From contig SCOI01000004.1 in NCBI GenBank assembly GCA_005503085.1, positions 186,001 through 250,000 of the forward strand: a stretch of DNA of 64,000 nt. Reading direction: 5' to 3'. The notes below the pieces were generated by a model. The model made no database searches. It saw only the letters and a program-made list of their open reading frames with translations, and was not told where the DNA came from. Numbering within the stretch: the first letter of the stretch is position 1; every line of letters begins with the position of its first letter. Both the position numbers and the translations under genes were made by a program. Shown here one piece after another: positions 1,022 through 56,535 of the stretch. This stretch comes from Burkholderiales bacterium C2. GTDB lineage: Bacteria; Pseudomonadota; Gammaproteobacteria; Burkholderiales; Burkholderiaceae_C.

Positions 1022-1034
1022 GTGGCCAGGCTGC

Positions 1035-3155
1035 TCAGGCCTGCGGGCCGCGCCGGCGCCGCAGCTGCCAGCTCAGCAGGCCCAGACCCGCCAGCATCAG
1101 CGCGTAGCTCTCGGGCTCGGGCACGGCGCTGATGTCCAGGCGGATACTGCCGTTGTCATAGAACAGCGCGCTGGTGTAGCCCGCACCCAGGCCGCTGACC
1201 TGGACCGACGAGAACTGGCCCATGAAGTTGCCGGCGCTCATCAGCGTGAAGCTGGCCTTGCCGCTGAGCGAGAAGCTGTCCAGCAGGGTCAGCTGCAAGC
1301 CGCCGCCGAGGAAGGCCGTGCCGCCGATGGCCAGCAGATCGGTGCCGCCGGCGCCGAGCTCCAGGTCCAGCCAGCCGCTCGGGAACTGGGCGAAGTTGCC
1401 CAGCACCGTCAGCGTGCCGATCGAATCCTCGCCGGGAGCGATATGGCCGGCCTCGTTGAGCAGGTCGCCCAGGATGGTGGCGTTGCCGGCCAGCGTGCCG
1501 CCATGCACGGTCACATCGCCGCTGCCGAAGGCGCTGGCCGAGCGGCCGACCAGGGTGCCGCCGAACAGCTCGGTGCCGCCGGAATAGCTGTTGTCGCCCG
1601 CCAGCACCAGGGTGCCCGCACCGGACTTGGACAGGCTGCCCTCATAGACCCGGCTGTCGCGGGCGGCTTCCCGGGCCACACCCATCGCGTACTCGGTCTG
1701 CTCATCGGCGCTGGCGCTGGCGGGCAGGCCGTTGAGCCAGCCCTTGGCCGTCTTGGTGGCCTGCCAGCTGGCGGCCTCGGCCTGGTCCTCCAGCTTGCGC
1801 GCCTTGATGGCGGTGTCGGAGATGCTGTTGCTCCAAGTGTCGTTCTGGCCCTGCGTGTTGACGGCGAACTTGCCGAGGAACTGGCCCGGTCCGTTCATCG
1901 CATGGCGCAGGCTCACCGTGCCCCAGCCGTTGCGCTCATCCGGCACCGCGGTCAGCTTGCCGGCATTCGGGTTGACGATGGCCGTACCCGAGGCATTGTT
2001 GATCGTGCCGTTCTGCACCGCGGTGGTCTTCATCACCTCCAGGGCCTGGGCATTCGTCATGTAGCCGTAGCGCTCCATGATGACGGCCAGGGCGCCCGAG
2101 GCATGCGGGGCGGCCATCGAGGTGCCCGACAGGCTGGCATAGCCGGCTGTTGTGCCGGTCACCGAGCTGCCGTTGATGGCATTGCCGGGGGCCGTCACGC
2201 AAGCCCATTTGGACAGGCCGCACTGGTTGTACAGCTGTGCACCCGGCACATTGACCGAGCCGTCTCCGTTCAGCGACTGACCGGCCGCCACGCCGCCGAC
2301 CACCAGGTTCTGACGGATCGCGGCCACGGCCAGCCAGCTGCTTTCCAGTTCCGGCATGAAGTAGGCCATGCCCGAGCGGGCGCTGGCATTCGTGAAGCCG
2401 GTGTTGCCGGCGCTGAAGACCATCACCGTGCCGGTCTTGGCGGCGTCGACGGCGCCCTTGATCCAGGTGTCATCGCGCGACAGAAAACCCCAGGACCCGA
2501 TCAGGCCGGCTACGCCGGTGGGGCTGGATCCCAGGGTGTTGTATTGCTCGCTATTGGGCTGGCTGCCCCAACTGGTGCTGATGATGCGCACGCCCTGGGC
2601 GTTGACGCCGCGGTAGACATCGGCCACATGGGCCTGGTCGATGGTCTGGGCGGCGGTCTGCGTCCCCTGCGGCATGCCGAACAGGGCGGCGTCGGTCTTG
2701 CCGGTGTTGCCGATGTAGACATTGGCATTGAAGGCCACCCCATGGAAGTTGTTGCTGCCGCCGATGCTGCCGTCGCGCGAGGCGCCGATGGTGCCAGAGA
2801 CATGGGTGCCGTGTCTGTCGTTGTAGGCCGGGTTGTAGCTGCCGGCGATGCCGTTGACCGTCACCTGGTGGTAGCGATCGCTGCTCAGCTGCGGGTGCAG
2901 GTCGAAGAAGCCTGAATCGACCATGCCGACCTTGATGCCAGCGCCGCTGTAGCCGGCCGCATAGGCGTACTCGGCGCCGATGGACAGCAGGCCCCAGTCA
3001 CGCCGGAACTCGGCGGTTCGCCAACTGGCCGGATCACCGAGCATGCCGGGGTCGCCGTCGTAGGTGGTGATGGCGGCGGCCTGCTGGGCGGCCAGGCCTG
3101 CAAGCAGCAGGACGGCCAGGCGGGTGGGGCTCAGGTGAGACGGGGTGCGCTTCAT
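1035..3155 (-). CDS. Secreted S8 (subtilisin-like) serine protease with autotransporter-type repeat and PEP-CTERM anchor
   Basis: This is a 706-aa extracytoplasmic serine endopeptidase. A signal peptide covers residues 1-28 (ending QQAAA). The peptidase S8 domain spans about 50-440, with catalytic Asp80 (GMVDSG), His115 (RHGTHVSG), oxyanion Asn251 (SAGN) and Ser346 (SGTSMAAPHASG). Residues about 535-660 resemble a passenger-associated repeat of autotransporters (GAGTLVLAGDNSYSGGT). The C-terminus is a PEP-CTERM sorting signal: VPEPES, a hydrophobic helix, then RRRR. No beta-barrel is present, so the protein is probably processed by an exosortase system encoded elsewhere. The ATG at 3155 is preferred over an upstream start at 3221 because it has a GGAG site and starts a clean signal peptide. 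The substrate is unknown. Confidence 0.9.
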   Translation of the reverse strand: MKRTPSHLSPTRLAVLLLAGLAAQQAAAITTYDGDPGMLGDPASWRTAEFRRDWGLLSIGAEYAYAAGYSGAGIKVGMVDSGFFDLHPQLSSDRYHQVTVNGIAGSYNPAYNDRHGTHVSGTIGASRDGSIGGSNNFHGVAFNANVYIGNTGKTDAALFGMPQGTQTAAQTIDQAHVADVYRGVNAQGVRIISTSWGSQPNSEQYNTLGSSPTGVAGLIGSWGFLSRDDTWIKGAVDAAKTGTVMVFSAGNTGFTNASARSGMAYFMPELESSWLAVAAIRQNLVVGGVAAGQSLNGDGSVNVPGAQLYNQCGLSKWACVTAPGNAINGSSVTGTTAGYASLSGTSMAAPHASGALAVIMERYGYMTNAQALEVMKTTAVQNGTINNASGTAIVNPNAGKLTAVPDERNGWGTVSLRHAMNGPGQFLGKFAVNTQGQNDTWSNSISDTAIKARKLEDQAEAASWQATKTAKGWLNGLPASASADEQTEYAMGVAREAARDSRVYEGSLSKSGAGTLVLAGDNSYSGGTELFGGTLVGRSASAFGSGDVTVHGGTLAGNATILGDLLNEAGHIAPGEDSIGTLTVLGNFAQFPSGWLDLELGAGGTDLLAIGGTAFLGGGLQLTLLDSFSLSGKASFTLMSAGNFMGQFSSVQVSGLGAGYTSALFYDNGSIRLDISAVPEPESYALMLAGLGLLSWQLRRRRGPQA

Positions 3156-3405
3156 CGGTCGATCTCCAAAGGGGTATGGATGACGAGATTGGTGACCGGC
3201 CGGGAAAGGGCGCAGAGGCAAGACCTGACCCGTCTGCCGATCAAGCGCCCGATGCTAGTGTTGCTGCTTCGTGAAGAAGTACCGGTTTTCCCGCGCTTGT
3301 GGCGATGGCGGGCGATAGGCGTTCCTTCGTTCTTGGGGTGTGCGAACAGCGGTCCGACAAGGCCCGCCGCGCCGGGCCTGCAAAGACACCGATAATCCTG
3401 GGCTC

Positions 3406-6400
3406 GTGAATCCATCGTCTTCCTCCCCCAGGCCGCCAAGGCCGCAGCAGTCGCCGAAGGCGAATACCGGCCGGCCCGCGCCGCCGCCCGCCAACCCGCT
3501 GCCGCCCATCAGCTTCCCCGAATCGCTGCCGGTCTCCAGCCGGCGCGAGGACATCGCGCGCGCGCTGGCCGAACACCAGGTCATCATCGTCTGCGGCGAG
3601 ACCGGTTCGGGCAAGACCACGCAGCTGCCCAAGATCGCGCTGGCGCTGGGCCGTGGCCGGGCCAATACCGGCAAGCTGATCGGCCACACGCAGCCGCGGC
3701 GCATCGCCGCCTCCAGCGTGGCCAAGCGCATCGCCGAGGAACTGAAGACGCCGCTGGGCGAGATCGTCGGCTACAAGGTGCGCTTCCAGGACCGGCTGCA
3801 GCCGGGCGCCTCGGTCAAGCTGATGACCGACGGGATTCTGCTGGCCGAGACGCAGACCGATCCGCTGCTGAAGGCCTACGACACCATCATCATCGACGAG
3901 GCCCACGAGCGCTCGCTGAACATCGATTTCCTGCTCGGCTATCTGCGCGAGGTGCTGCCGCGCCGGCCGGACCTGAAGGTCATCGTCACCTCGGCCACCA
4001 TCGACGCCGACCGCTTCGCGAACCACTTTGCCTCGAGCAAGGGCCCGGCGCCGGTGCTGATGGTTTCGGGCCGGCTGTTCCCGGTCGAGCAGCGCTACCG
4101 GCCCTTCGAGGAATCGCGCGAGTACGACGTCAACAACGCCATCGTCGACGCCGTCGATGAACTCTGGCGCGAGGGAGGCGGCGATGTCCTGGTCTTCCTG
4201 CCCGGCGAGCGCGAGATCCGCGAGGCGGCCGAGGCGCTGCGCAAGCACCACCCGCCCGGCGTCGAGGTGCTGCCGCTGTTCGCACGCCTGTCGCAACAGG
4301 AGCAGGACAAGGTCTTCGAACCGCATGGCCAGCGCCGCATCGTGCTGGCGACGAATGTGGCCGAGACCTCGCTGACCGTCCCGGGCATCCGCTATGTGAT
4401 CGACCCGGGCCTCTCACGGGTCAAGCGCTACAGCTACCGCAACAAGGTCGAGCAGCTGCAGATCGAGGCCATCAGCCAGTCCAGCGCCAACCAGCGTGCC
4501 GGCCGCTGCGGCCGCGTCTCCAACGGCATCTGCATCCGTCTGTACGACGAGAAGGACTTCCTCGCCCGCCCCAAGTTCACCGATCCGGAAATCCTGCGCT
4601 CCTCGCTGGCCGGCGTGATCCTGCGCATGAAGGCCTTGCACCTGGGCCAGGTCGACGAGTTCCCCTTCATCGAGCCGCCGCCGCGCAAGGCCGTGGCCGA
4701 TGGCTACCAGTTGCTGGGCGAGCTGGGCGCGGTCGATGACTTGAACGAGCTGACGCCCATGGGTTGGGAGCTGGCCAAGCTGCCGCTGGACCCGCGGGTC
4801 GGCCGGATGATTCTGGAGGCCAGGAACCGCGAGGCGCTGACCGAGATCCTGATCATCGCCAGCGCGCTCAGCGGCCAGGACGTGCGCGACCGGCCGATGG
4901 AGGCGCAGCAGGCGGCCGATGAAAAGCACAAGAAGTTCGACGACGAGAAGTCGGAGTTCCTGGGCTACTTGAAGCTGTGGAAATGGCTGGAAGAGAGCAA
5001 GGGCGGCTCCGGGGAACACAAGCTCAGCCACCGCCGCTACGAAGCGCTGCTGCGCGAGAACTTCGTCAGCCCGCGCCGGGTGCGCGAATGGCGCGACATC
5101 TATTCGCAGCTGCACACCGTGGTCGCCGAGCATGGCTGGCGCATGAATGGCAGCCCGGCCACCTATGAGCAGGTGCATCTGTCGATGCTGGCCGGCCTCT
5201 TGGGCAATATCGGCCTGAAGAGCGACGAGGACGAGTGGTACCTGGGCGCGCGCGGCATCAAGTTCTGGCGCCACCCCGGTGCGCATCTGAGCAAGAAGCC
5301 GGGCCGCTGGATCGTCGCGGCCGAGCTGGTGGACACGACGCGGCTGTTCGGCCGCGGCATCGCCGCGATCGAGCCGCAGTGGCTGCCCTCTATCGCCGGC
5401 CATCTGATCAAGACCCAGCTGATGGAGCCGCACTGGGAGAAGAAGGCGGCCGAGGTGATCGCGCTGGAGCGCGCGACGCTGTACGGCATCGTCATCTACA
5501 GCAACCGGCGCGTGAACTTCGGCAAGGTCGATGCGGCCGCCGCGCGCGAGATCTTCATCCGCGAGGCCTTGGTCAACGGCGAATGGGAGACCCGTCTGCC
5601 CTTCCTGGCCCACAACCAGAAGCAGATCGCCAAGGTCGAGGAGCTGGAGCACAAATCGCGGCGCCAGGATGTGCTGGTCGACGACGAGCTGATCTACGCC
5701 TTCTACGACGCCCAGCTGCCGGCCGAGGTGTGCTCGGGCGCCACGCTGGAGCGCTGGTACCGCCACGAGTCCAAGGCCAATCCGAAACTCCTGCAGCTCA
5801 GCCGCGAGGAGCTGATGCGCCACGAGGCGGCCGGCATCACCGGCAGCGCCTTCCCGAAGACCATCCGCCTGGGCGGTGTCGACTGCGCCGCCACCTACCT
5901 GCACGAACCCGGCGATGCCCGGGACGGCCTCACCGTCACCGTGCCCATCTATGCGCTGAACCAGGTCAACGAGGAACGCTGCGAATGGCTGGTGCCCGGC
6001 ATGCTGGGCGCCAAGGTCACGGCCTTGCTGAAGAGCCTGCACCAGCGGCCGCGCTCGCGCCTGGTGCCGCTGCCGGACTTCGTCGCCGAGTTCATCGAAC
6101 TCAACCCCTTCGCCCAGGGCAGCCTGGTCGAGGTGCTGCTGAAGGCCGTCAAGGAGCGCAGCCAGATCGCGGTGCAGCGCAACGATTTCAAGCTCGAACA
6201 GCTGCAGGCCCATCTGTTCATGAACTTCCGCGTCGTCGACGAGCACGGCCGCCAGCTGGGCCAGGGCCGCAATCTGGCGGCGCTGAAGGCCGAGCTGGGC
6301 GGCCAGGCGCGCAGCGCCTTCCAGGCCCTGGCGGCGCTGAAGCTACCGGCCGCGCCCGTTGCCGAGCCGCCGCCGGTCGCGCCCGGGGGCATCCGGGCCG

Positions 6401-7287
6401 AGATCGTCAAGCCGGCCAGTGCACCGGTGCGCGAGGCGAGCAAGAGTTACACCGGCTGGACCTTTGGCGAGCTGCCCGAGTTGATGGAAGTCAAGCGCGG
6501 CGCCCAGACCCTGATCGGCTTCCCGGCGCTGATCGACCGGGTCAGCCATGTCGAGATCGAGGTGTTCGATGAGCCCGATGTCGCCGCCGCCAAGCACCGT
6601 CTGGGCCTGCGCCGCCTGGTGGCGCTGCAGCTCAAGGAGCCGCTGAAGTATCTGGAGAAGAACATCCCGGATCTGCAGAAGATGTCGGTGCTGTTCATGA
6701 GCCTGGGCACGGCCGAGGAGCTGCGCGACCAGATCATCGGCGTCGCACTGGACCGCGCCTTCCTGGCCGATCCGCTGCCGGCCGACGAATTCGCCTTCAA
6801 GGCCCGCATCGAGGAGGGCCGGGCGCGGCTCAACCTGATCGCGCAGGAGGTGGCGCGTCAGACCGGGGTCGTGCTGATCGAGCTGGCGGCCGCGAGCCGC
6901 AAGCTCAAGGACGCGCGTGCACCCAAGGAGGTGGGCGAGGACATCACGGCCCAGCTGCAGCGCCTGTGCCCCAAGCACTTCGTCACCGCCACGCCCTGGG
7001 CCCAGCTGCAGCACCTGCCGCGCTATCTGAAGGCCATCACCGCGCGGCTGGACAAGCTGCGTGCCGACCCGGCGCGCGACGCCAAGCTGCTGGCCGAGCT
7101 GAAGCCGCTGGAGCAGCGTTTCCTGCGCCGCCTGGCCGAGCTCAAGGGCACGACGGACGCCCGGCTGGTGGATTTCCGCTGGCAGCTGGAGGAGCTGCGC
7201 GTCAGCCTGTTTGCGCAGGAGTTGCGCACGCCGCAGCCGGTCAGCGTCAAGCGGCTGGACAAGGTCTGGGCCCAGCTGAGCGCCTGA
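3406..7287 (+). CDS. hrpA: ATP-dependent RNA helicase HrpA (DEAH box)
   Basis: HrpA is a large cytoplasmic DEAH-box RNA helicase that processes mRNA and rescues stalled ribosomes. Visible motifs are Walker A GETGSGKTTQLPK, DEAH in IIIDEAHERS, motif III VTSATID and motif VI QRAGRCGR. An HA2 domain, an OB fold and the long C-terminal HrpA-specific region (DUF3418) follow. The length of about 1290 residues fits the bacterial HrpA family. Two GTG starts are possible, 3340 and 3406. The later one is chosen because the first 22 residues look like non-coding sequence and a GATAAT element sits just before it; this choice is not certain. It is divergent from the S8 protease gene. Confidence 0.93.
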   Translation: MNPSSSSPRPPRPQQSPKANTGRPAPPPANPLPPISFPESLPVSSRREDIARALAEHQVIIVCGETGSGKTTQLPKIALALGRGRANTGKLIGHTQPRRIAASSVAKRIAEELKTPLGEIVGYKVRFQDRLQPGASVKLMTDGILLAETQTDPLLKAYDTIIIDEAHERSLNIDFLLGYLREVLPRRPDLKVIVTSATIDADRFANHFASSKGPAPVLMVSGRLFPVEQRYRPFEESREYDVNNAIVDAVDELWREGGGDVLVFLPGEREIREAAEALRKHHPPGVEVLPLFARLSQQEQDKVFEPHGQRRIVLATNVAETSLTVPGIRYVIDPGLSRVKRYSYRNKVEQLQIEAISQSSANQRAGRCGRVSNGICIRLYDEKDFLARPKFTDPEILRSSLAGVILRMKALHLGQVDEFPFIEPPPRKAVADGYQLLGELGAVDDLNELTPMGWELAKLPLDPRVGRMILEARNREALTEILIIASALSGQDVRDRPMEAQQAADEKHKKFDDEKSEFLGYLKLWKWLEESKGGSGEHKLSHRRYEALLRENFVSPRRVREWRDIYSQLHTVVAEHGWRMNGSPATYEQVHLSMLAGLLGNIGLKSDEDEWYLGARGIKFWRHPGAHLSKKPGRWIVAAELVDTTRLFGRGIAAIEPQWLPSIAGHLIKTQLMEPHWEKKAAEVIALERATLYGIVIYSNRRVNFGKVDAAAAREIFIREALVNGEWETRLPFLAHNQKQIAKVEELEHKSRRQDVLVDDELIYAFYDAQLPAEVCSGATLERWYRHESKANPKLLQLSREELMRHEAAGITGSAFPKTIRLGGVDCAATYLHEPGDARDGLTVTVPIYALNQVNEERCEWLVPGMLGAKVTALLKSLHQRPRSRLVPLPDFVAEFIELNPFAQGSLVEVLLKAVKERSQIAVQRNDFKLEQLQAHLFMNFRVVDEHGRQLGQGRNLAALKAELGGQARSAFQALAALKLPAAPVAEPPPVAPGGIRAEIVKPASAPVREASKSYTGWTFGELPELMEVKRGAQTLIGFPALIDRVSHVEIEVFDEPDVAAAKHRLGLRRLVALQLKEPLKYLEKNIPDLQKMSVLFMSLGTAEELRDQIIGVALDRAFLADPLPADEFAFKARIEEGRARLNLIAQEVARQTGVVLIELAAASRKLKDARAPKEVGEDITAQLQRLCPKHFVTATPWAQLQHLPRYLKAITARLDKLRADPARDAKLLAELKPLEQRFLRRLAELKGTTDARLVDFRWQLEELRVSLFAQELRTPQPVSVKRLDKVWAQLSA

Positions 7288-7403
7288 GTTGTCGCGCCTG
7301 CGCCGAATGCCCCGTGAATCGAGGCTTTATTGCCGCATCGCCAGGCGCACAATCTGGGTCAAATCACACTTTGTTTCATCAAACTCCAAGGTCCGCACGC
7401 ATC

Positions 7404-9281
7404 GTGCCGAATGCTGAACCGACTGCCAGTCCGCCCGACGCTGGCGCCAAGACCGCCGCCGCCGTGCGGCGCTTTGGTCGTTTTGAACTCCGGGCGCTGC
7501 TGAACAAGAGCACGCGCAGCATGTTGTGGCTGGTGCTGGACACCCGCAGCCAGCAGGAGATGCTGATCTGCATGCCGCGGCTGGCGCCCAACAGCCCCGA
7601 GGCCTTGGCCCACTGGCTGAAGACCGCCAACGCCGGTGCCCGCATCCAGCACCCGAACCTGGCCCATGTGGTCGAGGTCGGCCAGGTCGAGCACTGGCCT
7701 TTCATCGCCTATGACCGGGCGCTCGGCGAGACCCTGGATGAGCGGCTGGCGCGCCAGAACGCGCCGCTGCCGCTGGATGTGGCGGCCTGGACCTGCCAAT
7801 ACCTCGAAGGCCTGGCCTTCGCCCATGAGGCCGGCCATGCGCATCGCGATGTGCAGGCCGCCTCGATGCTGATCGACAGCCTGGGCCATGTGCGGGTGCT
7901 GGGCCTGGAGGTGGCGCAGGAGGTGTTCCCGGCCAATGTGGACTTCAATACCGTGACGCGGCGCGCGGTGCGCGAGGCGGCCCAGGACGATGTGCTGTGC
8001 GTCGGCCTGCTGATGCACCGCATGCTGACCGCCCGGCCGGTGCTCGACGAGGCCGATCTGCTGCTGGTGATGCAGCGCATGCAGCCGCAAGGCCATGAGT
8101 TGCTGCGCCTGGGCTGGGAGACGCCGCACCCGATTGCCGAACCGCTGCGCGCCATCGTCAACCGCGCCACCGACCGCCAGACCGGCCATCGCTACCATCT
8201 GGCGCGCAGCTTCTGGCGCGCGCTGGAAGGCTGGCGCAGCGCCGCCAATGACCAGGGCGGCGCAATCGCGCAGCTGATGGACAAGCTACAGCGCGTCGGC
8301 CATCTGCCGATCGCCTCGCTGCGCCTGCAGCGCATCGCCCAGTCGTCCAGCATGGAGGGCCAGCATGCCAGCGAGCTCTCCGGCCTGGTGCTGCAGGACA
8401 TGGCGCTGAGCCTGGAGATGCTGCGCCGTGTCAACAACGCGCTGAAGCAGCAAGGCATCGCAGCCGGCGGCGGCGCCATCCTGAATATGCAGCGCGCCAT
8501 CGCGATGCTGGGCCTGAACGGCGTGCAGCAGGCGGCCCGCGCGCTCAAGCCCTGGCCCGGCCCGCTGTCCGAAGCCAATGCCGCGACCTTGCGCAGCCTG
8601 ATGGGTCGGGTGCAGCGCGCCGGCCAGGTGGCGCAGGCGCTGCGCCCGGCCGGTTACGACGCCGAGGTGGTCTATCTGATCACCGTGATGCAGAACCTCG
8701 GCCGCCTGCTGCTGCAGTACCACTTTCCCGATGATGCGCAGCAGATCCGCCAGCTGATGCGCCCGTCCGAGCCGACCGCCGACAACCCCAAGCCGGTCGG
8801 CATGAGCGAGCAGTCGGCCGCCTATGCGGTGCTGGGCTGCGATCTCGAAGCGCTGGGCACGGCGGTGGCGCGCTACTGGAGCCTGGGCGACGAGCTGCTG
8901 CACATGATGCGACGCCAGGCCATCGAGGCGCCGGTGCGTGGTGGCGGCAGCGATGCGGAACTGCTGCGCCTGACCTGCAGCCTGGCCAATGAAATCGTCG
9001 ATGCGCTGGCCCTGCCCGAAGAGAAGCGCCAGGCCGGCGTCGAGACGGCCACGCGGCGCTATGCGCGGGCGCTGGGCCTGGGCCTGCGCGAGGTCTACGA
9101 GGCGCTGAATCCGGCCGCAGCTGCGACCCCCGCAACAGCCCACGCCGCCCACCCCGATCATCCCGACCACGCCGTGCCGGCCGCAGCGAAGCCCCAGGCC
9201 TCGCCGCTGCGCTCGCGCCTGCGAGACAAGACCGAGAGCGACGACCCGGTCGCCCAGCCGCCCATCGCGCCGAGCGGCTGA
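7404..9281 (+). CDS. Pseudokinase-HDOD domain signalling protein
   Basis: The protein has 625 residues. The N-terminal half (about 22-280) follows the Ser/Thr kinase fold but has lost the active-site residues compared with its neighbour. The ATP-binding Lys position is Cys56, HRDLKPSN has become HRDVQAAS (Lys to Gln151, Asn to Ser154), and DFG reads GLE (167-169). The second half (about 290-500) is an HDOD domain, a degenerate HD domain found in bacterial signalling proteins; the tail is Ala/Pro/His-rich. The start is GTG at 7404, since upstream codons in this frame overlap hrpA and look non-coding. It lies 37 bases before a homologous kinase-HDOD-GAF gene, so they probably form an operon. 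A scaffold or regulator role is inference. Confidence 0.8.
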   Translation: MPNAEPTASPPDAGAKTAAAVRRFGRFELRALLNKSTRSMLWLVLDTRSQQEMLICMPRLAPNSPEALAHWLKTANAGARIQHPNLAHVVEVGQVEHWPFIAYDRALGETLDERLARQNAPLPLDVAAWTCQYLEGLAFAHEAGHAHRDVQAASMLIDSLGHVRVLGLEVAQEVFPANVDFNTVTRRAVREAAQDDVLCVGLLMHRMLTARPVLDEADLLLVMQRMQPQGHELLRLGWETPHPIAEPLRAIVNRATDRQTGHRYHLARSFWRALEGWRSAANDQGGAIAQLMDKLQRVGHLPIASLRLQRIAQSSSMEGQHASELSGLVLQDMALSLEMLRRVNNALKQQGIAAGGGAILNMQRAIAMLGLNGVQQAARALKPWPGPLSEANAATLRSLMGRVQRAGQVAQALRPAGYDAEVVYLITVMQNLGRLLLQYHFPDDAQQIRQLMRPSEPTADNPKPVGMSEQSAAYAVLGCDLEALGTAVARYWSLGDELLHMMRRQAIEAPVRGGGSDAELLRLTCSLANEIVDALALPEEKRQAGVETATRRYARALGLGLREVYEALNPAAAATPATAHAAHPDHPDHAVPAAAKPQASPLRSRLRDKTESDDPVAQPPIAPSG

Positions 9282-9318: not shown

Positions 9319-11745
9319 ATGCTCCCCTCCACACCCACCGCACCGCAGATGCCGCCTGCGCTGGGGCGCTTTCGTCCCTTGCGCCGGCTCGGGCAGGGCG
9401 CGCAGGCGACGGTCTGGCTGGCGCATGACCCGCGGCTGGACCGCGAGGTGGCGCTGAAGGTCTTGCTGGCCGGCGCCACGCCGGCCAATGTCGAGGCCTG
9501 GCTGCACGAGGCCCGCGCCGTCAGCCGCCTGACGCATCCGAATATCGTGCCGGTGTTCGAGGCCGATATGCAGGGCGGCCAGGCCTATCTGGTGTTCGAG
9601 TATGTGGCCGGCCCGACGCTCAGCGAGCGCCTGCGCAGCGGCCCGGCGCTGCGCCCCCGTGACGCGGTGGAGCTGATGCTGGGCGTGCTCGACGGCCTGC
9701 AGGCCGCCCATGCCGCCGGCGTCGTGCACCGCGATCTGAAGCCCTCCAACATCCTGCTCGACGCCAAGGGCCGGGCGCGGGTGATGGACTTCGGCATCGC
9801 TGCCCGGCTGACGGACGCCGGCAAACCGCAAGGCATCGTCGGCACACCCGGCTATATCTCGCCCGAGGCCGCGCGCGGCGAGGCGCCGAGCCCGCAGATG
9901 GATGTGTTCGCGGCCGCGGTGATGCTGGGTGAGCTGCTGTCGGGTCAGCGCCTGAACGCCGACCCCGATCCCTGGCGCGCGGTGCGCCGCGTCATCGAGC
10001 AAGACCTGGCCCTGCCGCCGGGGCTCAATGCCGAGGTCGACGATGCGCTGCGCGCCATCGTGCTGCGCGGCCTGGCGCGCGATGCGACACGGCGCTGGCC
10101 CACGGCCAAGGCCTTTCACGATGCGCTCAACGAATGGCTGCACCCGGCGGTGGCGCCCAGCAGCGAAGCGGGCGACACGGCGGCGCTGGAGTTCCTGCTG
10201 CGCCGCATGCGCCACAAGACCGACTTCCCGGCCATGTCCGATTCGGTCGGTCGCATCCAGCGCCTGACCCTGTCCGAGAACGAGAGCATCACCAGCCTCT
10301 CCAACGAGATCCTGAAGGACGTGGCGCTGACCCACAAGCTGCTGCGCCTGGTCAATACCGCCCAGTTCAGCCATGCCGGCGGCGGCAGCATCTCGACGGT
10401 CTCGCGCGCCGCCGCGCTGATCGGCTTTGCCGGCATCCGCAATCTGGCGCTGTCGCTGATCCTGCTCGAGCGCATGGAGAACAAGGCCCATGCCCAGCTC
10501 TTGCGCGAGGAGTTCCTGCGCTCGCTGATGGCCGGCTCGCTGGCCCGCGAGCTGTGCCTGGTGCAGCGCGAGAACGAGGAGAGCTTTCTCGCCGCGATGT
10601 TCCAGAACCTGGGCCGTTTGCTGACCGAGTTCTACTTTCCCGAGGAGGCCCAGCAGGTGCGCCGCATCACGCGGCCCGAGCGCCGCGCCGGTGGCGACAA
10701 GGCCGGGCCCGCCGCGCCGGTCAGCGAGGCGCTGGCCTCGGCCCAGGTGCTGGGCCTGAGCTATGAGCAGCTGGGCCTGGGCGTGGCCAAGCAATGGGGG
10801 CTGCCGGACAGCCTGCAGCGCAGCATGCGCCGCCCCGACGGTGATGTGCCGACGCGGCTGCAAGACAACCCGGCTGAGCGCCAGCGCTGGCTGGCGCGGG
10901 CGGCCAACGAGATGTCCGACGCGATCCTGCAGACCGAGCCGGCCGAGACCCATGCCAAGCTCAAGGCGATGGCGCAGCGCTACTCGCGCGCGCTGGGCGT
11001 GCCGGTCGAGGCCTTCGATGCGGCCGCCGATCAGGCCCGCCAGCGCCTGGCCCAGCTGGCCCAGGCCATGGGCATCAGCCTGGCGAAGAACTCGCCGGCC
11101 CAGCGTCTGCTGGCGCCGCTGACCCCTACCGTCGATGACAGCCTGTCGCCGCACGAGCTGCAGGCCACCTTGCTGGCCGAGCCGACCCTGCAGCGCAGCG
11201 AGGCCGAGGTCTCGCGCGAGCAGGCCAGCGAGACCCTGGCCGCCGGCATCCAGGACATTACGAATGCGATGGTCGAGAACTTCAAGCTCAACGAAGTGCT
11301 GCGCATGATTCTGGAGACCATCTACCGCAGCCTGGGTTTTCGGCGCGTGGTGTTCTGCCTGCGCGACCCGAAGACCGAAACCCTGACCGGCCGCTTCGGC
11401 CTGGGCGAGGGGGTCGAGGCGGTGGCGCCGCTGTTCCGCGTGCCGCTGCGCAGCACGCCCGGGGTCACGGCCGATCTGTTCTCGGCGGTCTGCCAGAAGG
11501 GCGTCGACACGCTGATCGCCGACGCCTCGGTGCCCAAGATCGCCGAGCGCCTGCCGGCCTGGTTCCTCGGCGCGCCGAAGGCGGCCAGCTTCCTGATACT
11601 GCCGATGGCGGTCAAGGGCGCGCCGTTCGCGATGATCTATGCCGACAAGGCCCGGCCCGGCGGCATCGATCTGGGCGAGAAGGAGCTGTCGCTGCTGCGC
11701 ACGCTGCGCAACCAGGCGGTGATGGCCTTCAGGCAGGCCAGCTGA
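9319..11745 (+). CDS. Serine/threonine protein kinase with HDOD and GAF domains
   Basis: This 808-aa cytoplasmic signalling protein has an intact eukaryote-like kinase domain (about 15-275): glycine loop GQGAQATVW, Lys47 (VALKVL), Glu64, catalytic HRDLKPSN (Asp139, Lys141, Asn144), DFG at 157-159 and GTPGYISPE in the activation loop. An HDOD domain follows (about 285-490), then a GAF-like sensor domain near the C-terminus (about 640-805). No membrane segment is present, unlike PknB-type kinases. The domain order parallels that of the upstream pseudokinase-HDOD protein, suggesting duplication and a functional pair. Ligand and substrates are unknown. It converges with a chemotaxis-receptor gene, with only 9 bases between the stop codons. 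Confidence 0.9.
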   Translation: MLPSTPTAPQMPPALGRFRPLRRLGQGAQATVWLAHDPRLDREVALKVLLAGATPANVEAWLHEARAVSRLTHPNIVPVFEADMQGGQAYLVFEYVAGPTLSERLRSGPALRPRDAVELMLGVLDGLQAAHAAGVVHRDLKPSNILLDAKGRARVMDFGIAARLTDAGKPQGIVGTPGYISPEAARGEAPSPQMDVFAAAVMLGELLSGQRLNADPDPWRAVRRVIEQDLALPPGLNAEVDDALRAIVLRGLARDATRRWPTAKAFHDALNEWLHPAVAPSSEAGDTAALEFLLRRMRHKTDFPAMSDSVGRIQRLTLSENESITSLSNEILKDVALTHKLLRLVNTAQFSHAGGGSISTVSRAAALIGFAGIRNLALSLILLERMENKAHAQLLREEFLRSLMAGSLARELCLVQRENEESFLAAMFQNLGRLLTEFYFPEEAQQVRRITRPERRAGGDKAGPAAPVSEALASAQVLGLSYEQLGLGVAKQWGLPDSLQRSMRRPDGDVPTRLQDNPAERQRWLARAANEMSDAILQTEPAETHAKLKAMAQRYSRALGVPVEAFDAAADQARQRLAQLAQAMGISLAKNSPAQRLLAPLTPTVDDSLSPHELQATLLAEPTLQRSEAEVSREQASETLAAGIQDITNAMVENFKLNEVLRMILETIYRSLGFRRVVFCLRDPKTETLTGRFGLGEGVEAVAPLFRVPLRSTPGVTADLFSAVCQKGVDTLIADASVPKIAERLPAWFLGAPKAASFLILPMAVKGAPFAMIYADKARPGGIDLGEKELSLLRTLRNQAVMAFRQAS

Positions 11746-11761: not shown

Positions 11762-13272
11762 AACACGCTGACCGCAGCGACCAGCTGCTGCGACTGCTGC
11801 TGCAGCGAGGTAGCGGCGGCCGAGGCCTCTTCCACCAGCGCGGCATTCTGCTGGGTGGCCTGATCCATCTGCGTGATCGCCTGGTGGATCTGCTCGATGC
11901 CGGCGGTCTGCTCGACGCTGGCGCTGCTGATCTCGCCGACGATGTCGGTGACCCGCTTCACGCTGGCGACGATCTGCTCCATCGTCGCGCCGGCCTGGCC
12001 GACCAGGGCGCTGCCGCTGTCGACCTTCTCGACCGAGTCGACGATCAGGCCCTTGATCTCCTTGGCCGCAGCCGCCGAGCGCTGGGCCAGGCCGCGCACC
12101 TCGGAGGCGACCACCGCGAAGCCGCGGCCCTGCTCGCCGGCTCGCGCCGCTTCCACCGCCGCGTTCAGCGCCAGGATATTGGTCTGGAAGGCGATGCCGT
12201 CGATCACGCCGATGATGTCGACGATCTTCTTCGACGAGCCGCTGATCGAGTTCATGGTCTGCACCACCTGGCTGACCACCTCGCCGCCCTGCACGGCCAC
12301 GGCCGAGGCCGACATCGCCAGCTGGTTGGCCTGGCGGGCGTTGTCGGCGTTCTGCTTGACCGTGGCGGTCAGCTCCTCCATCGAGGCCGCGGTCTGCTCG
12401 AGCGCGCTGGCCTGGGCCTCGGTGCGGCCCGACAGGTCCAGGTTGCCGGCCGCGATCTGGCCCGAGGCGGTGGCGATGGTGTCGGTGGAGTCGCGGATCT
12501 GGCGCACCGTGCCGGCCAGGCTTTGCTGCATCTGCTGCATCGCGGCCAGCAGGCTGTGCTGGTCGCCGGGTCGCAGCTGCACCTTGACACCGAGGTCGCC
12601 GGCGCCGATGCGGCGCACGATATCGGCCGCATAGTCGGGCTCGCCGCCGAGCTGGCGGTAGATATTGCCCATCATGCGCCAGCCCAGGCCGCCGACCACC
12701 AGCATCAGCAGGCCGCCGACCGAGAGCAGCACGGTCGCGCTGCGCCAGAACGCGGTGTCGATATCGTCGATGTAGTCGCCAAAGCCGATGATCCAGTCCC
12801 AGGGCTCGAACTTGATCACCGCGTAGAGCTTGTCCACCTTGCCCTCGGTGCCGGGCCGGGTGCCCGGTGCGATGACCGTGCCTATGGTCTGGCCGGCCAG
12901 GGCCTTGCGGTAGCGCTCGCCGGCCTCCTTGCCGCCCTTGGCGTCGACGATGCCGATGCGCTTGGGGTTGGGGTGCACATGGTTGATGTCATCCGAGTAG
13001 CCGCGGACGAAGAAATAGAGCTCGTCCTTGCGGAAGCTGCCGATGATGCGCTTGCCTTCCTTCTGCGCATCGGCCTTGGAGATCTCGCCGGCTTTTTCCT
13101 GGGCATGCAGTTTCTCCAGGGCCGAGTGCGCCAGCAGCACCAGGGTCGAGAGCTGGGCGGTGCGCTCCTTCATCATCGACTGCCTCAAGGTGCTCAGCGA
13201 GATGGCGGCCAGCAGCACCACGCCAAGCAGTGCGGTGCCGCAAAGCAGCAGGATTCGTGTGTTGAGCTTCAT
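11755..13272 (-). CDS. Methyl-accepting chemotaxis protein with periplasmic cache domain
   Basis: This is a 505-aa inner-membrane chemoreceptor that would signal to CheA/CheW. TM1 is at about residues 8-28, followed by a periplasmic single-cache (sCache-type) domain at about 30-185 ([17 protein letters not shown], then [15 protein letters not shown]). TM2 is at about 190-212, then HAMP, then the signalling domain. The conserved hairpin tip reads [20 protein letters not shown]. The ATG at 13272 ([10 protein letters not shown]) is chosen over an upstream frame start at 13491 because it begins directly with a membrane helix. No che genes are adjacent, so it is an orphan receptor. Its upstream side abuts the 13445-15780 island. 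Confidence 0.93.
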
Positions 13273-13444
13273 GCGAGACCAGACATCGGGAGAGAGGGAG
13301 CTGGCCGAACGTGGTGCCGTACAGCCATGGCGGGCACCGCCGGGCGGCGGTGATGGCTGTTTATCGGCGCAAATCGGCCGAGCTTGAGCTGATGAGGTCT
13401 GGGGGGGCGGGCGCAGCGCCAGAACGGCGGCGCGAAGAGGGGGG

Positions 13445-13456
13445 TGACGAGCCTTA
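13445..13456. repeat. Left attachment-site repeat (att candidate)
   Basis: TGACGAGCCTTA here matches 15769-15780 exactly. It marks the left edge of the lower-GC segment, between the promoter side of the chemoreceptor gene and the nuclease operon. Confidence 0.7.
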
Positions 13457-13551: not shown

Positions 13552-14472
13552 ATGCGCAACGATGGAAGGGCTTTGGAGAGTCTGGTTTCATTCGTGGAGA
13601 AGATGGCGCTCCAGCAGGGCTTGGCGTTACTCGCCAACGAACGCCAGTACAACGCAGACGGCGTGCAGGTCGGAGAGTTTGACCTTCAAGTAAAGGGGCG
13701 GGTCGGAACGACGGACATACGGTGGCTCATCGAATGCCGTGACCGACCGTCTGATGGCCCACAGTCTGGTGCTTGGATTGAGCAACTTGTGGGCCGTCGA
13801 GACCGCTTCGGGTTTAACAAGGTGACCGCAGTGTCAACGACTGGCTTCGCCGCTGGTGCCGTTGAATTCGCGCATCAGAAGGGCATCGAATTGCGCACCG
13901 TTGAGGCAATGGCGCCCGAGTTCTTTAGCTGGCTCATGATGCCAGCCATACATGCTGAGACACGCCAGTCAACTCTGCTCCACGCCGACTTCGGAACGGC
14001 GAAAGAGCTGTCTCAGGAGGTAGCGACGGCGCTGCTGAAGGATCTAACCGGGGTTCGGAGCGATGCGAAGATGCTTAGGGCACCTGATGGGGGCCTTCAG
14101 AGCCTCGCAGAGGCATTCTCGGCATGCGTCAGCGCGCTGGAGGTGGTCTGGGAAGGGATTGAACCTAACGGTCCATCCCGTACTGTGCGCGTGGATGCGG
14201 CTTATCCCGAGGGTAACCGCTACACAGTCGAATTGCCCTCTGGAATATTCGAACTTGCCGTCATTTACTTCAAGGGTGAAGTTTCATTGATCTGCGAAGA
14301 CCTTCCCCTTTTGACCACTAGCGAGTACCGGCAGGTTCAGGAGGGAGGCAGAGTGATTTCTCAGGTTGCGGCCTATGCACCTCAGACCATTAACGGCATG
14401 AAGCTGGCCGTTGAGGCGCATCACATGGGCGATTCTGGAGAAACTCACATCGTCATGAGGCGCGTCGAGTAG
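13552..14472 (+). CDS. Mrr-like PD-(D/E)XK restriction endonuclease-fold protein
   Basis: This 306-aa protein has an N-terminal nuclease-like domain (about 1-120): a first helix with acidic residues, GEFDLQV (Asp44), then WLIECRDR (Glu61-Cys62-Arg63), followed by a helix with Gln and the strand TAVSTTGF. The pattern resembles Mrr-type and type IV restriction nucleases, but the usual catalytic Lys of ExK is Arg63. The rest (about 130-306) is a domain I do not recognise, probably rich in strands near its end. A GGGAGG site precedes the ATG. The next gene starts 14 bases after this stop codon, so the two are probably co-translated. It is lower in GC than neighbouring genes and lies inside the ffs-integrated island. 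The function is likely DNA or RNA cleavage in defence; the target is unknown. Confidence 0.72.
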   Translation: MRNDGRALESLVSFVEKMALQQGLALLANERQYNADGVQVGEFDLQVKGRVGTTDIRWLIECRDRPSDGPQSGAWIEQLVGRRDRFGFNKVTAVSTTGFAAGAVEFAHQKGIELRTVEAMAPEFFSWLMMPAIHAETRQSTLLHADFGTAKELSQEVATALLKDLTGVRSDAKMLRAPDGGLQSLAEAFSACVSALEVVWEGIEPNGPSRTVRVDAAYPEGNRYTVELPSGIFELAVIYFKGEVSLICEDLPLLTTSEYRQVQEGGRVISQVAAYAPQTINGMKLAVEAHHMGDSGETHIVMRRVE

Positions 14473-14486
14473 AGGAGGGGTTGGGC

Positions 14487-15371
14487 ATGGGGAGTTTGAC
14501 GCCTCTGCGCGTTTCAGAGTTGGTGGTCATCGAATCTCTGGAAGACCATGAAGTCAAGACGGGTGCCATCTTGGCTGACTATGTCTCAGGTCTGGAAAGC
14601 GTCCGAGCACTGGGCATTCGCGTCCGTCTGCTTGGGTGCTCTTACTCGGCTGAGTTCGCTAACCTGATCGACAGTCTGGCGGGCGAGGCTGAGCAGGGCA
14701 TGACGTTCCCCATCCTTCACGTTGAGTGTCATGGCTCTGCTGAACGTGGTCTGGAATTTGCCAACGGGAGCGAGTTGTCATGGGCATCGTTTGGAGACTG
14801 CTTGCGGCGTCTCAATGCCGCTACTGGCATCAACTTGATCGTCTCCGTTTCGGCCTGCTACGGTGCGCACTTACTTGGAGTCATGCCCTCGACATTGCCT
14901 GCACCATGTCTGACTAGCGTGGGTCCAATTCAAGAAGTGGACCCCTCCGACCTCATGGCAGGGTTCCGGCTGTTTTATCGAACGCTATTTGACACAGGTG
15001 ATGCGGGAGTTGCTGGTAGAGAGCTGCGCCGATCAACTGAACTTACCGGGATTTGGGATGTAACCCATGCCGAGCAGTGGTTCGAGTTGGTGACTACCAA
15101 TTACATCAAGGACGAGTGCACTCCGAAAGCCGTTCGGCAGCGTGCGATGGCGCTGTTTCATCGCGCCAAGCGCGAGGGGCGTTTGCTATCCATGGCCGAG
15201 TACAAAAGACAGCTGGTGCAGTCACACCGTCGTGACCTGCAAGGCCGGATGTTTGATCTCTTTTTCATGCTCGACGAGCATCCGCAGCACGCCATGCGCT
15301 TTCACCGCGCACGGACGAGATTGGCGGAAGCGATTGAAGCCCTTCGCGCCACCGGTCGCTATGTTCTGTAG
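14487..15371 (+). CDS. Caspase/CHAT-like cysteine protease
   Basis: This 294-aa protein carries the hallmark dyad of clan CD proteases. ILHVECHGS places His82-Gly83 at the end of one strand, and IVSVSACYGAHL places Cys124 after the next; GLEFANGSELSW lies between them as in CHAT domains. The C-terminal part (about 180-294) is helical and charged, possibly a substrate or partner-binding region. It has no signal peptide or membrane helix. The ATG at 14487 is chosen over a TTG at 14481 because AGGAGG (14473-14478) lies 8 bases upstream. It is the second gene of the nuclease operon. In other bacterial defence systems such proteases cleave a host or effector protein upon infection; the substrate here is unknown. 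Confidence 0.72.
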   Translation: MGSLTPLRVSELVVIESLEDHEVKTGAILADYVSGLESVRALGIRVRLLGCSYSAEFANLIDSLAGEAEQGMTFPILHVECHGSAERGLEFANGSELSWASFGDCLRRLNAATGINLIVSVSACYGAHLLGVMPSTLPAPCLTSVGPIQEVDPSDLMAGFRLFYRTLFDTGDAGVAGRELRRSTELTGIWDVTHAEQWFELVTTNYIKDECTPKAVRQRAMALFHRAKREGRLLSMAEYKRQLVQSHRRDLQGRMFDLFFMLDEHPQHAMRFHRARTRLAEAIEALRATGRYVL

Positions 15372-15665
15372 GCTGGCTTCCTTGACCAGTTGAGGCATCA
15401 GCTGGATAGGGGCCAGTGCAGTGGCCTTCTGGGGCCTTGACGCGCGATGTTGCGCAAAGCTGGTCAGCCAGTGGGCTCGGAAGGCCGCAGCCCGGTCATT
15501 GGCCGTTCCCAGGTCCGAGGTCTCCAGGGAGCAGCGGTGCGCCCATTGACCGGAGTAGAGGTACTTGAGGTCTACAGGGGCCTTGATGCCCCAATGCCAA
15601 AGACTTGATCCTGGCCGCTGATGAACCCCGGGGGCTCTCTTCATTTCGTCGCTCACTTTCGTCAT
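15222..15665 (-). pseudogene. Truncated tyrosine-type integrase, N-terminal domain only
   Basis: The first ~98 residues (15665 to about 15372) match the start of phage-type site-specific integrases with a DUF6538-like N-terminus: GVHQRPGSSLWHWGIKAPVD, then QWAHRCSLETSDLGTAND and a helix ending TSFAQHR. The core-binding and catalytic domains (R-H-R-Y) are absent. Homology stops at the stop codon of the protease gene, and the frame runs on as meaningless antisense of that gene to 15222. The gene is therefore broken, apparently by a deletion. It reads away from the right att repeat, about 100 bases from it, as expected for the integrase that inserted the island. Confidence 0.75.
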
Positions 15666-15678
15666 GAGCGAACCCCGG

Positions 15679-15700
15679 AAGTACACATCAAAAGTACACA
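15679..15700. repeat. Pair of 9-bp direct repeats AAGTACACA upstream of the integrase remnant
   Basis: AAGTACACA occurs at 15679-15687 and 15692-15700, 13 bases apart, just upstream of the integrase start. The spacing is about one helical turn, as for arm-type integrase binding sites or an operator. Confidence 0.5.
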
Positions 15701-15768
15701 GTCAAGGTCTTGAAACCCGCTTGAACGCTGGGAACCCGCATGGATGCTGGGTTCTAGGGTGTTGGGGT

Positions 15769-15780
15769 TGACGAGCCTTA
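15769..15780. repeat. Right attachment-site repeat (att candidate), 3' end of ffs
   Basis: TGACGAGCCTTA is the exact second copy of 13445-13456. On the minus strand it forms the closing-stem 3' arm of 4.5S RNA, so integration here regenerates a complete RNA gene. Confidence 0.7.
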
Positions 15781-15864
15781 CCCCCGGCACTGGTCACAAC
15801 AGTTAGGGCTGCTTGGTTCCCCATCTGACCCGGTTGGCCGTGCTTCCATGCGAGGAGGCCCGTC
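15770..15864 (-). ncRNA. ffs: 4.5S RNA, small bacterial signal recognition particle RNA
   Basis: This is the RNA scaffold of the SRP, which binds Ffh and targets membrane proteins. Read on the minus strand, GACGGGCCT (15864-15856) pairs with AGGCTCGTC (15778-15770) through nine pairs, one of them G-U. The apical Ffh-binding hairpin reads GUCAG-A-UGG-GGAA-CCA-AGCAGCC (15829-15807). The GGAA tetraloop and the GUCAG/AGCAG internal loop match E. coli, while the short helix is UGG/CCA instead of UCC/GGA, a compensatory change. The length of about 95 nt fits. Location close to dnaX-ybaB-recR parallels the scr-dnaX order known in Bacillus. Ends are assigned from the closing stem and may be off by a few bases. 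Confidence 0.88.
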
Positions 15865-15871
15865 AGCGCGC

Positions 15872-15877
15872 ATTGTA
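15872..15877 (-). promoter_or_regulatory. -10 element of the ffs promoter
   Basis: TACAAT on the minus strand lies 7 bases before the inferred 5' end of 4.5S RNA, as expected for a sigma-70 -10 box. I see no good -35 element. Confidence 0.55.
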
Positions 15878-15915
15878 TGCGATGCGCGCCGGCCTTCTCG
15901 GAACCTGGGGTGCGC

Positions 15916-16293
15916 CTACAGCCCCAGCGTGGCGGAGCGCGTCATCGAGGCGCCGATGGCATAGCCCAGCAGGGCCAGTGCGCCGAGATAGGCGGGCAGG
16001 CGGTAGTCGCGGCTCACCACGGTCCAGTGGGCGCAGGCCGCGTAGCCGCACAGCGCCAGCAGCTTGGCGGCCAGCCAGCTGTCACGCAGCAGGTCGTAGT
16101 GCAGCAGCCCCCACAGGCTCAGGCCGGAGACGGCCAGCAGGAAGTGCAGGCCGAAGGAGATCGCGCGCAGGCGGTCGTCATCACCCCATTCGGCCTTGAC
16201 CTGGGCGGCCAGGCCGCGGGCAAAAAAAAGCACGAGGCTGGCCCAGGCCAGCAGCTCGTGCATTCGCAGCATCCCCGAGTAGAACCAGTCCAT
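15916..16293 (-). CDS. SirB2-like small integral membrane protein
   Basis: This 125-aa protein consists of four predicted membrane helices (HELLAWASLVLFFARGLA; LHFLLAVSGLSLWGLL; WLAAKLLALCGYAACAHW; YLGALALLGYAIGASM). Length and layout fit the SirB family, named for an invasion regulator of Salmonella, but of unclear function in most bacteria. The ATG at 16293 is used; a GTG directly before it is the alternative. It lies 60 bases after the PurM-like gene on the same strand and may be co-transcribed with it. Confidence 0.7.
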   Translation of the reverse strand: MDWFYSGMLRMHELLAWASLVLFFARGLAAQVKAEWGDDDRLRAISFGLHFLLAVSGLSLWGLLHYDLLRDSWLAAKLLALCGYAACAHWTVVSRDYRLPAYLGALALLGYAIGASMTRSATLGL

Positions 16294-16356
16294 CACCGCC
16301 CCCTGTTTGGGGCAAGCTTGGTCGGCGCCAGCGAGGCTGTCAAGCCCGGTCGGGGC

Positions 16357-17484
16357 TCAGCGCAGCTGCAGATCGTCGTCGCTGAAGCGGATGTTCAGCG
16401 GCTCGATCAGCAGCTGCTTCTCGCCTTCTTCCAGGCTGCCGGCCACCCAGGCCTCGATGCCGCAGGCCTTGGCCACCTCGACGGTGCGCTGGGCATCGGC
16501 GGCCGGCACGAAGATGGCAAAACCTGCCCCCATGTTCAGGGTCGAGTAGGCCTCGCGGTCGTCCTGCTTGGCCTGTTCCTGCATGAACTTCAGCACCGGC
16601 GTGACCGGCGGCACCGTGTGGATGCGGTAGCTGAATTGGGCCGGGTGGCGCAGCAGCTTGCGCCAGCCGTGGCCGGTGATGTTGGCGCAGTAGTGGGGCT
16701 GGATGCCGGCCTTGAAGAGCGCCTCGGTGACCGGCGAGTACAGCACGGTGGGGGCCAGCAGTGCGTCGCCGTAAGTGAGGCCGGGTTCGATCTCGGTCAG
16801 GTAGCCGTTCGGCAGGCGCTCCACCAGCTTGCGCGCCAGGCTCAGGCCGTTGGCGTGGATGCCGCTGGAGGCCAGGAGCACGATGGCGTCACCGGCGGCC
16901 AGATCGTCGCCGACCGACAGCCGGCTCTTGGGATTGATCAGGCCGGTGCAGGAGGCGGCCAGGTCGATGCGGCCGTCCTCGACGATGCCGGCCAGCGCCG
17001 GAGTCTCGCCGCCGCCCCAGGCCACGGCACAGGTGTCGCAGGCCTTCTTCCAGCCCTCGACCAGAGCTTGCGCGCGGGCCTTGTCACCGAACCAGTCCGA
17101 GCCGCCGGCGGCCCAGTAGGCCTGCACCACCAGCGGCGTGGCGCCGACGGTGATCAGGTCGTTGACGGCCATCGCGATGGTGTCCTGGGCGATGCCGGCG
17201 TAATAGCTGCTCTTGCCGGTCAGGCGCGCCATCTCGTCGGCCACCAGGGTCTTGGTGCCCAGGCATTCGACGATGGAGGCGATGTAGAAGGGCCCGACAT
17301 CCACCACATAGGCCGACTCGCCGCGCGAGGCCGGCACCTCGCTGAAGCCATGGCCGCCCAGATGGGCGCCGGTGGCCGCCGCTGCGCGCTGGGCGGCGAT
17401 CTTCAGCGGGTCGATCAGGTCGTAATTGACACCGGCCTGCTCATAGCTGAGGGTGTCGGGAGAGGAGGGGGCATGCGTGCTCAT
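16357..17484 (-). CDS. AIR synthase (PurM)-like protein
   Basis: This 375-aa protein belongs to the PurM superfamily, whose founding member converts FGAM to aminoimidazole ribonucleotide in purine synthesis. Visible signatures are LSYEQAGVNYDL near the N-terminus, ECLGTKTLVADE, the core IAMAVNDLITVGATPL, AWGGGETPAL and SSGIHANGLSLARK. The PurM order is kept, but the N-terminal segment and the glycine-rich loop GGHGFSEV differ from classical PurM. It may therefore be a paralogue, with the true purM elsewhere. It is divergent from dnaX. Confidence 0.7.
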   Translation of the reverse strand: MSTHAPSSPDTLSYEQAGVNYDLIDPLKIAAQRAAAATGAHLGGHGFSEVPASRGESAYVVDVGPFYIASIVECLGTKTLVADEMARLTGKSSYYAGIAQDTIAMAVNDLITVGATPLVVQAYWAAGGSDWFGDKARAQALVEGWKKACDTCAVAWGGGETPALAGIVEDGRIDLAASCTGLINPKSRLSVGDDLAAGDAIVLLASSGIHANGLSLARKLVERLPNGYLTEIEPGLTYGDALLAPTVLYSPVTEALFKAGIQPHYCANITGHGWRKLLRHPAQFSYRIHTVPPVTPVLKFMQEQAKQDDREAYSTLNMGAGFAIFVPAADAQRTVEVAKACGIEAWVAGSLEEGEKQLLIEPLNIRFSDDDLQLR

Positions 17485-56501: not shown

Positions 56502-56535
56502 GGCTCTGCTGAAGAGCAGAACAACTAGATTGTTG

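Follow-up and report, generated by a model that had tools for sequence, protein, structure and literature searches.

The stretch of 64 kb that we analyzed (hereafter the window) contains a 4.5S (SRP) RNA gene, ffs, whose 3′ end recurs at some distance, and this raises the question if the gene has served as the integration site of a mobile element and, if so, of which kind. The gene is located at positions 15767–15864 on the minus strand and is intact, as judged by its match to the Rfam family RF00169, its fold and its identity to the ffs gene of an empty site. The sequence-only reading of this DNA had suggested a check with a covariance model, and RF00169 (Bacteria_small_SRP) indeed matched positions 15864–15767 with 59.1 bits, where the gathering score is 40, covering model positions 1–97 in cmscan; this is the single RF00169 match in the whole genome. 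The RNA is predicted to fold with −42.7 kcal/mol (z −2.36), and 3 of 200 shuffled sequences were equally low. The 12-bp sequence TGACGAGCCTTA (given for the plus strand) occurs in two exact copies that border an insert, one being the att core in the ffs 3′ end at 15769–15780 and the other the distal att core at 13445–13456, each assigned by the exact repeat and by the join found at the empty site. According to the earlier reading, this repeat equals the last 11–12 bases of ffs; an exact 12-mer does lie in the 3′ end of the gene, but the Rfam match continues 2 nt beyond it. In the RNA fold, the closing stem has its 3′ strand within the core. With identical core sequence on either side, the 4.5S RNA remained complete. 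In this simple sense the earlier reading is right about a restored closing stem, the gene being the same as in the empty-site genome. From base composition, 0.003 exact copies of the core are expected in 64 kb, and no further match with up to two mismatches is present in the window. Since 2.81 matches would be expected at this tolerance, two such matches are unremarkable as a count, and the weight lies on their exactness, their position and the empty site.

The empty site was found in G001, the sole other genome of the genus examined. It is contiguous with window positions 11955–13456 (92.7% identity) and 15764–17364 (93.9%), and the two aligned blocks have nothing between them and share 17 bases at the core. 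The exact core occurs once in a 16-kb stretch of G001, and both ffs genes are identical, with no difference over 98 bases. A single core joining the ffs 3′ end to the sequence left of position 13445 had been predicted and was thus found, in one genome; together with the exact repeat and the RF00169 match, it confirms the observation and supports the 4.5S RNA gene as an integration site. With a single other genome of the genus for comparison, the data fit either a gain in the window or a loss in G001. The insert measures 2,324 bp from core to core and has a G+C content of 57.3% compared to 68.0% for the window, of which it is the G+C minimum: none of 617 windows of equal length (step 100 bp) was lower. 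Hence, the locus displays the border repeats, the empty site (in one genome) and the intact RNA gene of an element residing at the 3′ end of a structured RNA gene, but an intact integrase gene is missing from it. Elsewhere in the window, we observed three consecutive tRNA-Lys genes at 56535–56830, two of which carry a CTT anticodon and are identical over the Rfam match, and two adjacent long open reading frames at 6966–9281 and 9319–11745 that by eye resemble fusions of protein kinase and HDOD-type domains.

What is left of an integrase is an N-terminal remnant of a tyrosine integrase with a DUF6538 domain at 15372–15686 on the minus strand, the catalytic domain being absent. It was recognized by PF20172/DUF6538 (E 4.3e-7), by an HMM of its relatives (E 3.5e-16) and by BLASTP, and it is 70% identical over 105 aa to the integrase of a Pelomonas aquatica element at ffs. 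The similarity ends at codon 105, coinciding with the stop codon of a cargo gene; about 105 N-terminal codons thus persist in the island, and there is no working integrase. A profile of seven ffs integrases revealed no other integrase relative in the genome of the window at E≤0.001. The open frame of the remnant starts 67 bp from ffs on the same strand. In six relatives (G016, G237, G259, G193, G767 and G084) the integrase frame starts 33–108 bp after ffs, and in G774 and G252 it extends back into the gene. The remnant is too short for a phylogenetic tree and was assigned to its group by similarity: its nearest BLASTP matches are the integrases of loci L214 and L199, both of the ffs group, followed by tRNA-site integrases, and two of the latter (L106 and L105) resemble it more than many ffs-site integrases do.

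The DNA beside ffs also carries two kinds of paired repeats. Two direct 19-bp repeats CCCAGCRTYCAWGCGGGTT lie beside the core (15714–15751, minus strand) and were noticed in the comparison of ffs flanks; similar pairs are present in G287 and G774 and a single unit in G006, and the repeats are possibly sites for accessory factors. Putative paired arm-type sites of the form TGTGTACTT-N4-TGTGTACTT lie at 68 and 81 bp, counted from the core (15679–15700, minus strand), their place and 13-bp period being the same as in relatives; this pair is a TGTGTAC-type variant that falls outside our loose search pattern. Neither pattern nor inspection revealed paired arm sites inside the far core of the window. 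Compared to the ffs-specific DUF6538 group described below, the window therefore has the DUF6538-type N-terminus behind ffs on the same strand and the paired 13-bp sites, but no matching pair inside the far core.

Two cargo genes, both with open frames, make up the remainder of the island. Cargo gene 1 (13552–14472, plus strand, 306 aa) encodes an Mrr-like nuclease, based on a match to PF04471 (E 4e-4, 20.9 bits, slightly below the cut-off of 21) and on a Cupriavidus pauculus plasmid protein to which it is 37.9% identical over its full length; the gene that follows in C. pauculus is unrelated to cargo gene 2. Cargo gene 2 (14481–15371, plus strand, 296 aa) contains a conserved His-Gly motif and a Cys, of which the His and the Cys are invariant in an alignment of the window protein with three plasmid relatives. 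The two occur in the same order as the His-Cys pair of caspase-like/CHAT peptidases, and the gene possibly encodes a putative caspase-like protein. It matches phrog_38219, a family of unknown function, with an E-value of 3.2e-8; in Pfam no family reaches its cut-off, PF15640 coming nearest with E 0.17. We also considered an assignment as a protease by fold and discarded it, as single-sequence AlphaFold2 yielded an unusable model with a mean pLDDT of 41.1. NCBIfam gave no match for either cargo protein, and PADLOC none for the three proteins of the island.

Relatives of cargo gene 2 were found in 20 plasmid records (23–43% identity), one of them within 4 kb of annotated CBASS-type genes, and none were found among the genome contigs searched. 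As a single-sequence query it had no relatives in viral contigs or phages, and as an alignment query it matched three viral loci; among 349 genomes of the order there were two matches, one being the window's own. The other ffs loci contain no relative of either cargo gene at E≤0.001 (tblastn, 249 loci). In G472 (L245, positions 22–3577), a cargo-2 relative is flanked by an open reading frame with a weak, below-cut-off Mrr_cat match, which precedes it, and by an HNH endonuclease gene, an arrangement that may represent a nuclease plus caspase-like module. A conserved pairing of cargo genes 1 and 2 received no support, since BLASTP showed no real similarity of the Mrr_cat-like frame in G472 to cargo gene 1. 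Judging from sequence features, the two-gene cargo of the window possibly serves anti-phage defence.

Does the island stand alone or does it belong to a wider group of elements at ffs? An ffs match at E≤0.001 was obtained in 293 of 299 genomes of the family, with two matches in five of them. The second match in G084 and G006 falls below the RF00169 family cut-off, the ffs copies in G193 and G084 bracket an element with the integrase behind the first ffs, and the second copies in G002 and G028 lie close to contig ends. When 399 family genomes were searched with a profile built from the integrases of G084 and G193, 20 of them contained matches at E≤1e-30, 25 in total. Eight of these matches, including the two queries, are situated directly behind ffs, all confirmed by Rfam. 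Twelve of the remaining 17 were run in ARAGORN, which reported a tRNA or tmRNA gene within the fetched DNA for ten and none for two. In named genomes, with seven ffs integrases as query, 26 of 46 loci lie behind ffs (six being the query's own), and Rfam confirmed each of the 26, 19 directly and seven as the same records in the family set. ARAGORN placed a tRNA gene upstream of the match in 16 of the 17 loci run out of the 20 without ffs; L114–L118, L201, L205 and L234 were outside the scope of the ARAGORN analysis. The genera with an occupied ffs site include Variovorax, Polaromonas, Limnohabitans, Curvibacter, Pseudorhodoferax, Polynucleobacter, Piscinibacter, Roseateles, Pelomonas, Ramlibacter and Rhodoferax. 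A metagenome-assembled genome (MAG) labelled Rickettsia typhi (L211) also contains ffs with an ffs integrase, which the tree places among burkholderial sequences, those of Limnohabitans included; this MAG is probably mislabelled or contaminated.

Not every search led to ffs. Across the order, none of 25 loci with a relative of the G193 integrase was at ffs, as judged by an ffs pattern within the fetched DNA. Matches of the remnant in G080, G159 and G070, from 200 family genomes, had been candidates for ffs loci and were dropped, since Rfam finds tRNAs and no ffs there. A search for integrase reading frames by catalytic boxes was likewise abandoned in favor of the HMM, as many of its long-frame matches were unsupported by the latter. 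To look at the site irrespective of integrases, we took 72 ffs flanks from the list of ffs scores, which represent part of that list and are in some cases short. The HMM matched an integrase in one of them, the remnant in G287, indicative of a low occupancy of ffs.

We then asked how the integrases at ffs are related to one another. The tree comprises 60 of the 71 integrase loci, leaving out seven duplicates of named records and four reading frames shorter than 280 aa (L217, L226, L228 and L229). L199 was assigned to ffs by hand, as its open frame passes back through ffs and the gene was seen there. All 24 ffs-site integrases fall on one side of a single branch with an ultrafast bootstrap of 100 and an SH-aLRT of 97; the site label changes once on the tree, and none of 500 shuffles was equally low. 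The midpoint root serves the drawing only, and the program warned of long branches in rows with other sites and flagged five rows, four with ffs sites, for unusual composition. Among the sites examined, neighboring branches are associated with tRNA-Pro, tRNA-Arg and tRNA-Ser genes. The gene ffs is a repeated target of one tyrosine integrase group in Burkholderiales, and one move to ffs with none away from it is the simplest account for this sample, whose queries were ffs integrases.

The members of this group also share a common att layout, in which the core is followed by 13-bp repeats in pairs, for the most part some 67 and 80 bp away. A loose pattern, composed after the sequences had been seen, detected tandem TGTRTCAC-type sites in 24 of 29 flanks, compared to a mean of 3.0 and a maximum of 8 in 200 shuffles. 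The sites start 54–76 bp from the core in 23 flanks, mostly at 65–68 bp; in L199 the pattern matched at 134 bp, and inspection revealed a pair at 69/82. The five flanks missed by the pattern carry variants visible by inspection: pairs at 68/81 in the window and at 67/80 in L214 (the same element as G237), L192 and L195, and one clear site at 67 in G287. G006 has no arm sites by pattern or inspection. At the far end, the pattern found a pair in 8 of 13 closed elements, 83–84 bp before the core in five and 117–120 bp in three, the latter being elements with a longer ffs-derived repeat. No far-end pair was found by pattern in the window, G006, G193, L192 and L228; by eye, G193 has a weaker pair ahead of its full ffs copy. 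Longer copies of ffs at the far end were seen in several elements. Curvibacter gracilis (G193) has two identical full-length ffs genes (L047, positions 2579–2675 and 17343–17439), one per end of its 14.8-kb element, with identity beginning 5 bp before the gene and ending 18 bp after it, and partial ffs-derived far repeats of 62–78 nt are present in G084, G006 and L218.

The 13 elements closed by core repeats, the window included, range from 1.1 to 14.8 kb, with sizes of 1,071, 1,782 (one core mismatch), 2,324, 4,315, 5,260 and 6,665 bp for the smaller and 10,298, 11,638, 11,747, 12,910, 13,571, 14,764 and 14,771 bp for the larger ones. We scanned 30 proteins from ten other ffs elements with Pfam and obtained no match at E≤0.01 for 14 of them. 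Nuclease or defence-like matches occur in 5 of the 11 elements examined, with the window among the 11. The G006 element of 1,071 bp consists of one putAbiC gene between ffs and a partial ffs copy and has no integrase. That of G774 encodes NERD, a Swt1-like HEPN protein at its cut-off and SRAP, and that of G193 an HsdR, an IRG-like GTPase and a DUF5906 primase/helicase-type protein. The Variovorax element L196 has an Mrr_cat-like frame slightly below cut-off. Further matches were a DUF5906 primase/helicase-type protein and DUF2806 in G084, Rha in G016, a resolvase and, below cut-off, a phage lysozyme in G252, and a UvrD-type helicase and an AAA protein in L218. Conjugation or capsid genes were not recognized among the 30 scanned proteins, which cover the ten elements in part. 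A small serine resolvase gene recurs in ffs elements, identified by Pfam in L182 (positions 14383–14988) and by a look at the sequence in L196, L208 and L218. Reduced integrases are seen here as well: a Rhodoferax MAG element of 1,782 bp contains an integrase fragment, and in G287 (L172/L184) the integrase N-terminus only is stranded behind ffs, with no second core at ≤3 mismatches in a 39-kb stretch. G287 represents a further stage of the same decay.

Taken together, the island in the window very probably arose by integration at ffs of an element of the DUF6538-type group, which then lost most of its integrase and one arm. A mobile element with an ffs-specific DUF6538-type tyrosine integrase would have recombined its attP with the last 12–14 bp of the host ffs and would thereby have come to lie between two core copies, leaving the 4.5S RNA whole. 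We infer that an integrase of the ffs lineage carried out this step. Later, the integrase would have been lost beyond codon ~105, as would the paired sites that are expected inside the far core at ~83 bp from it, and the two-gene cargo of Mrr-like nuclease and putative caspase-like protein would have stayed beside the att site. The former presence of the far arm sites and of the rest of the integrase, and their subsequent deletion, is suggested by the relatives; the far end, where arm sites were looked for and not found, may also be rearranged rather than simply lost. The island is probably incapable of moving by itself now, and a mobilization by a related incoming integrase able to use one arm seems unlikely.

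Other origins have to be weighed against this. The island could be a non-autonomous unit, i.e. a defence cassette with core and arms that is moved in trans by the ffs integrases of other elements. The well-preserved core and arm sites beside ffs, the open frames of both cargo genes and the integrase-less one-gene element of G006, closed by ffs repeats, would agree with such a unit, but far-end arm sites are absent in both the window and G006, the partial integrase gene suggests decay and neither cargo gene has relatives in the other ffs loci at the threshold given above. We consider a trans-mobile cassette improbable, as one arm is missing and its own genome offers no helper, i.e. no other integrase relative at E≤0.001. 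An insertion by a Tn7-like CRISPR-associated transposon (CAST) of type I-F3b comes to mind because such transposons have been recorded to attach at ffs (PMC11406308). Here, two frames of ~300 aa and the integrase remnant fill the insert and leave no room for tns and cas genes, neither frame has a transposition or Cas family in Pfam, no tns/tniQ or cas candidate is present among the island's reading frames, and the repeat lies inside ffs, is 12 bp long and recurs in tyrosine-integrase elements. The gene content thus rules out this origin, to which we attach next to no probability. Equally negligible is a chance 12-mer repeat combined with an ordinary intergenic indel around native cargo: the number of matches at ≤2 mismatches is ordinary for the window, but the expectation for exact copies, the G+C minimum and the presence of an integrase remnant and arms speak against it, and the join of the empty site exactly at the repeat rules it out. 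A broader notion would be that the ffs gene of Burkholderiales acts as a swap port, with elements of one group reduced to att-keeping defence cassettes of one or two genes that are mobile in trans via helpers; we regard this as doubtful.

How does decay of an ffs-specific integrase element, the origin we favor, relate to what is known? Tyrosine integrases create islands at tRNA and tmRNA genes in which the core repeat corresponds to the 3′ end of the structured RNA gene, the integrase is adjacent and the gene remains intact, and such islands have reportedly been treated by Williams in 2002 and by Islander and TIGER; PMC12884075 refers to this line of work. The window resembles them in that its core repeat equals the RNA gene 3′ end, the integrase adjoins and the gene is intact, and differs in that the target is the SRP RNA gene and the integrase is reduced to a remnant. 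A close relative of the island, the ffs element of Pelomonas aquatica (G237; L119/L214), shares 78.7% identical DNA over 437 bp of ffs and flank as well as the same arm sites; its integrase frame comprises 516 aa in contrast to the N-terminal remnant of the window. One search matched that integrase only at positions 121–351 of 462, so its C-terminus may be damaged, and no far core with ≤2 mismatches was found in a 29.8-kb stretch.

As a target, ffs has been described before. The pneumococcal prophage group PPH015 integrates in ffs with short attL/attR repeats (PMC8637289). The element in the window is alike in its position at the SRP RNA gene and its short repeats. Those elements are streptococcal prophages with another core sequence, whereas the closed elements here are islands of 1.1–14.8 kb with the 3′ closing-stem strand as core, and one group is faithful to ffs across many Burkholderiales genera. 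The Tn7-like CRISPR-associated transposons of type I-F3b also land at ffs (PMC11406308); they do so by RNA-guided transposition rather than by core-by-core recombination through a tyrosine integrase, and no CAST genes are present in the island. Among the papers covered by our literature search, with subscription journals mostly outside it, there was no report of tyrosine-integrase elements at ffs except the pneumococcal ones and none of a DUF6538 ffs integrase group, a result that argues only weakly for their absence. The kind of element and ffs as a target for pneumococcal prophages and type I-F3b CASTs are thus known already, while the dedicated integrase group, its breadth in Burkholderiales and the reduction to integrase-less inserts appear to be new.

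A group faithful to ffs beside tRNA-Ser, tRNA-Pro and other tRNA lineages offers a clean natural case of target change followed by retention, and the common core and arm positions make the target switch testable. Moreover, the ffs 3′ end with its 12–14 bp repeat provides an anchor for small islands that are invisible to integrase-based searches, as exemplified by the two-gene insert of the window and the one-gene putAbiC insert of G006.
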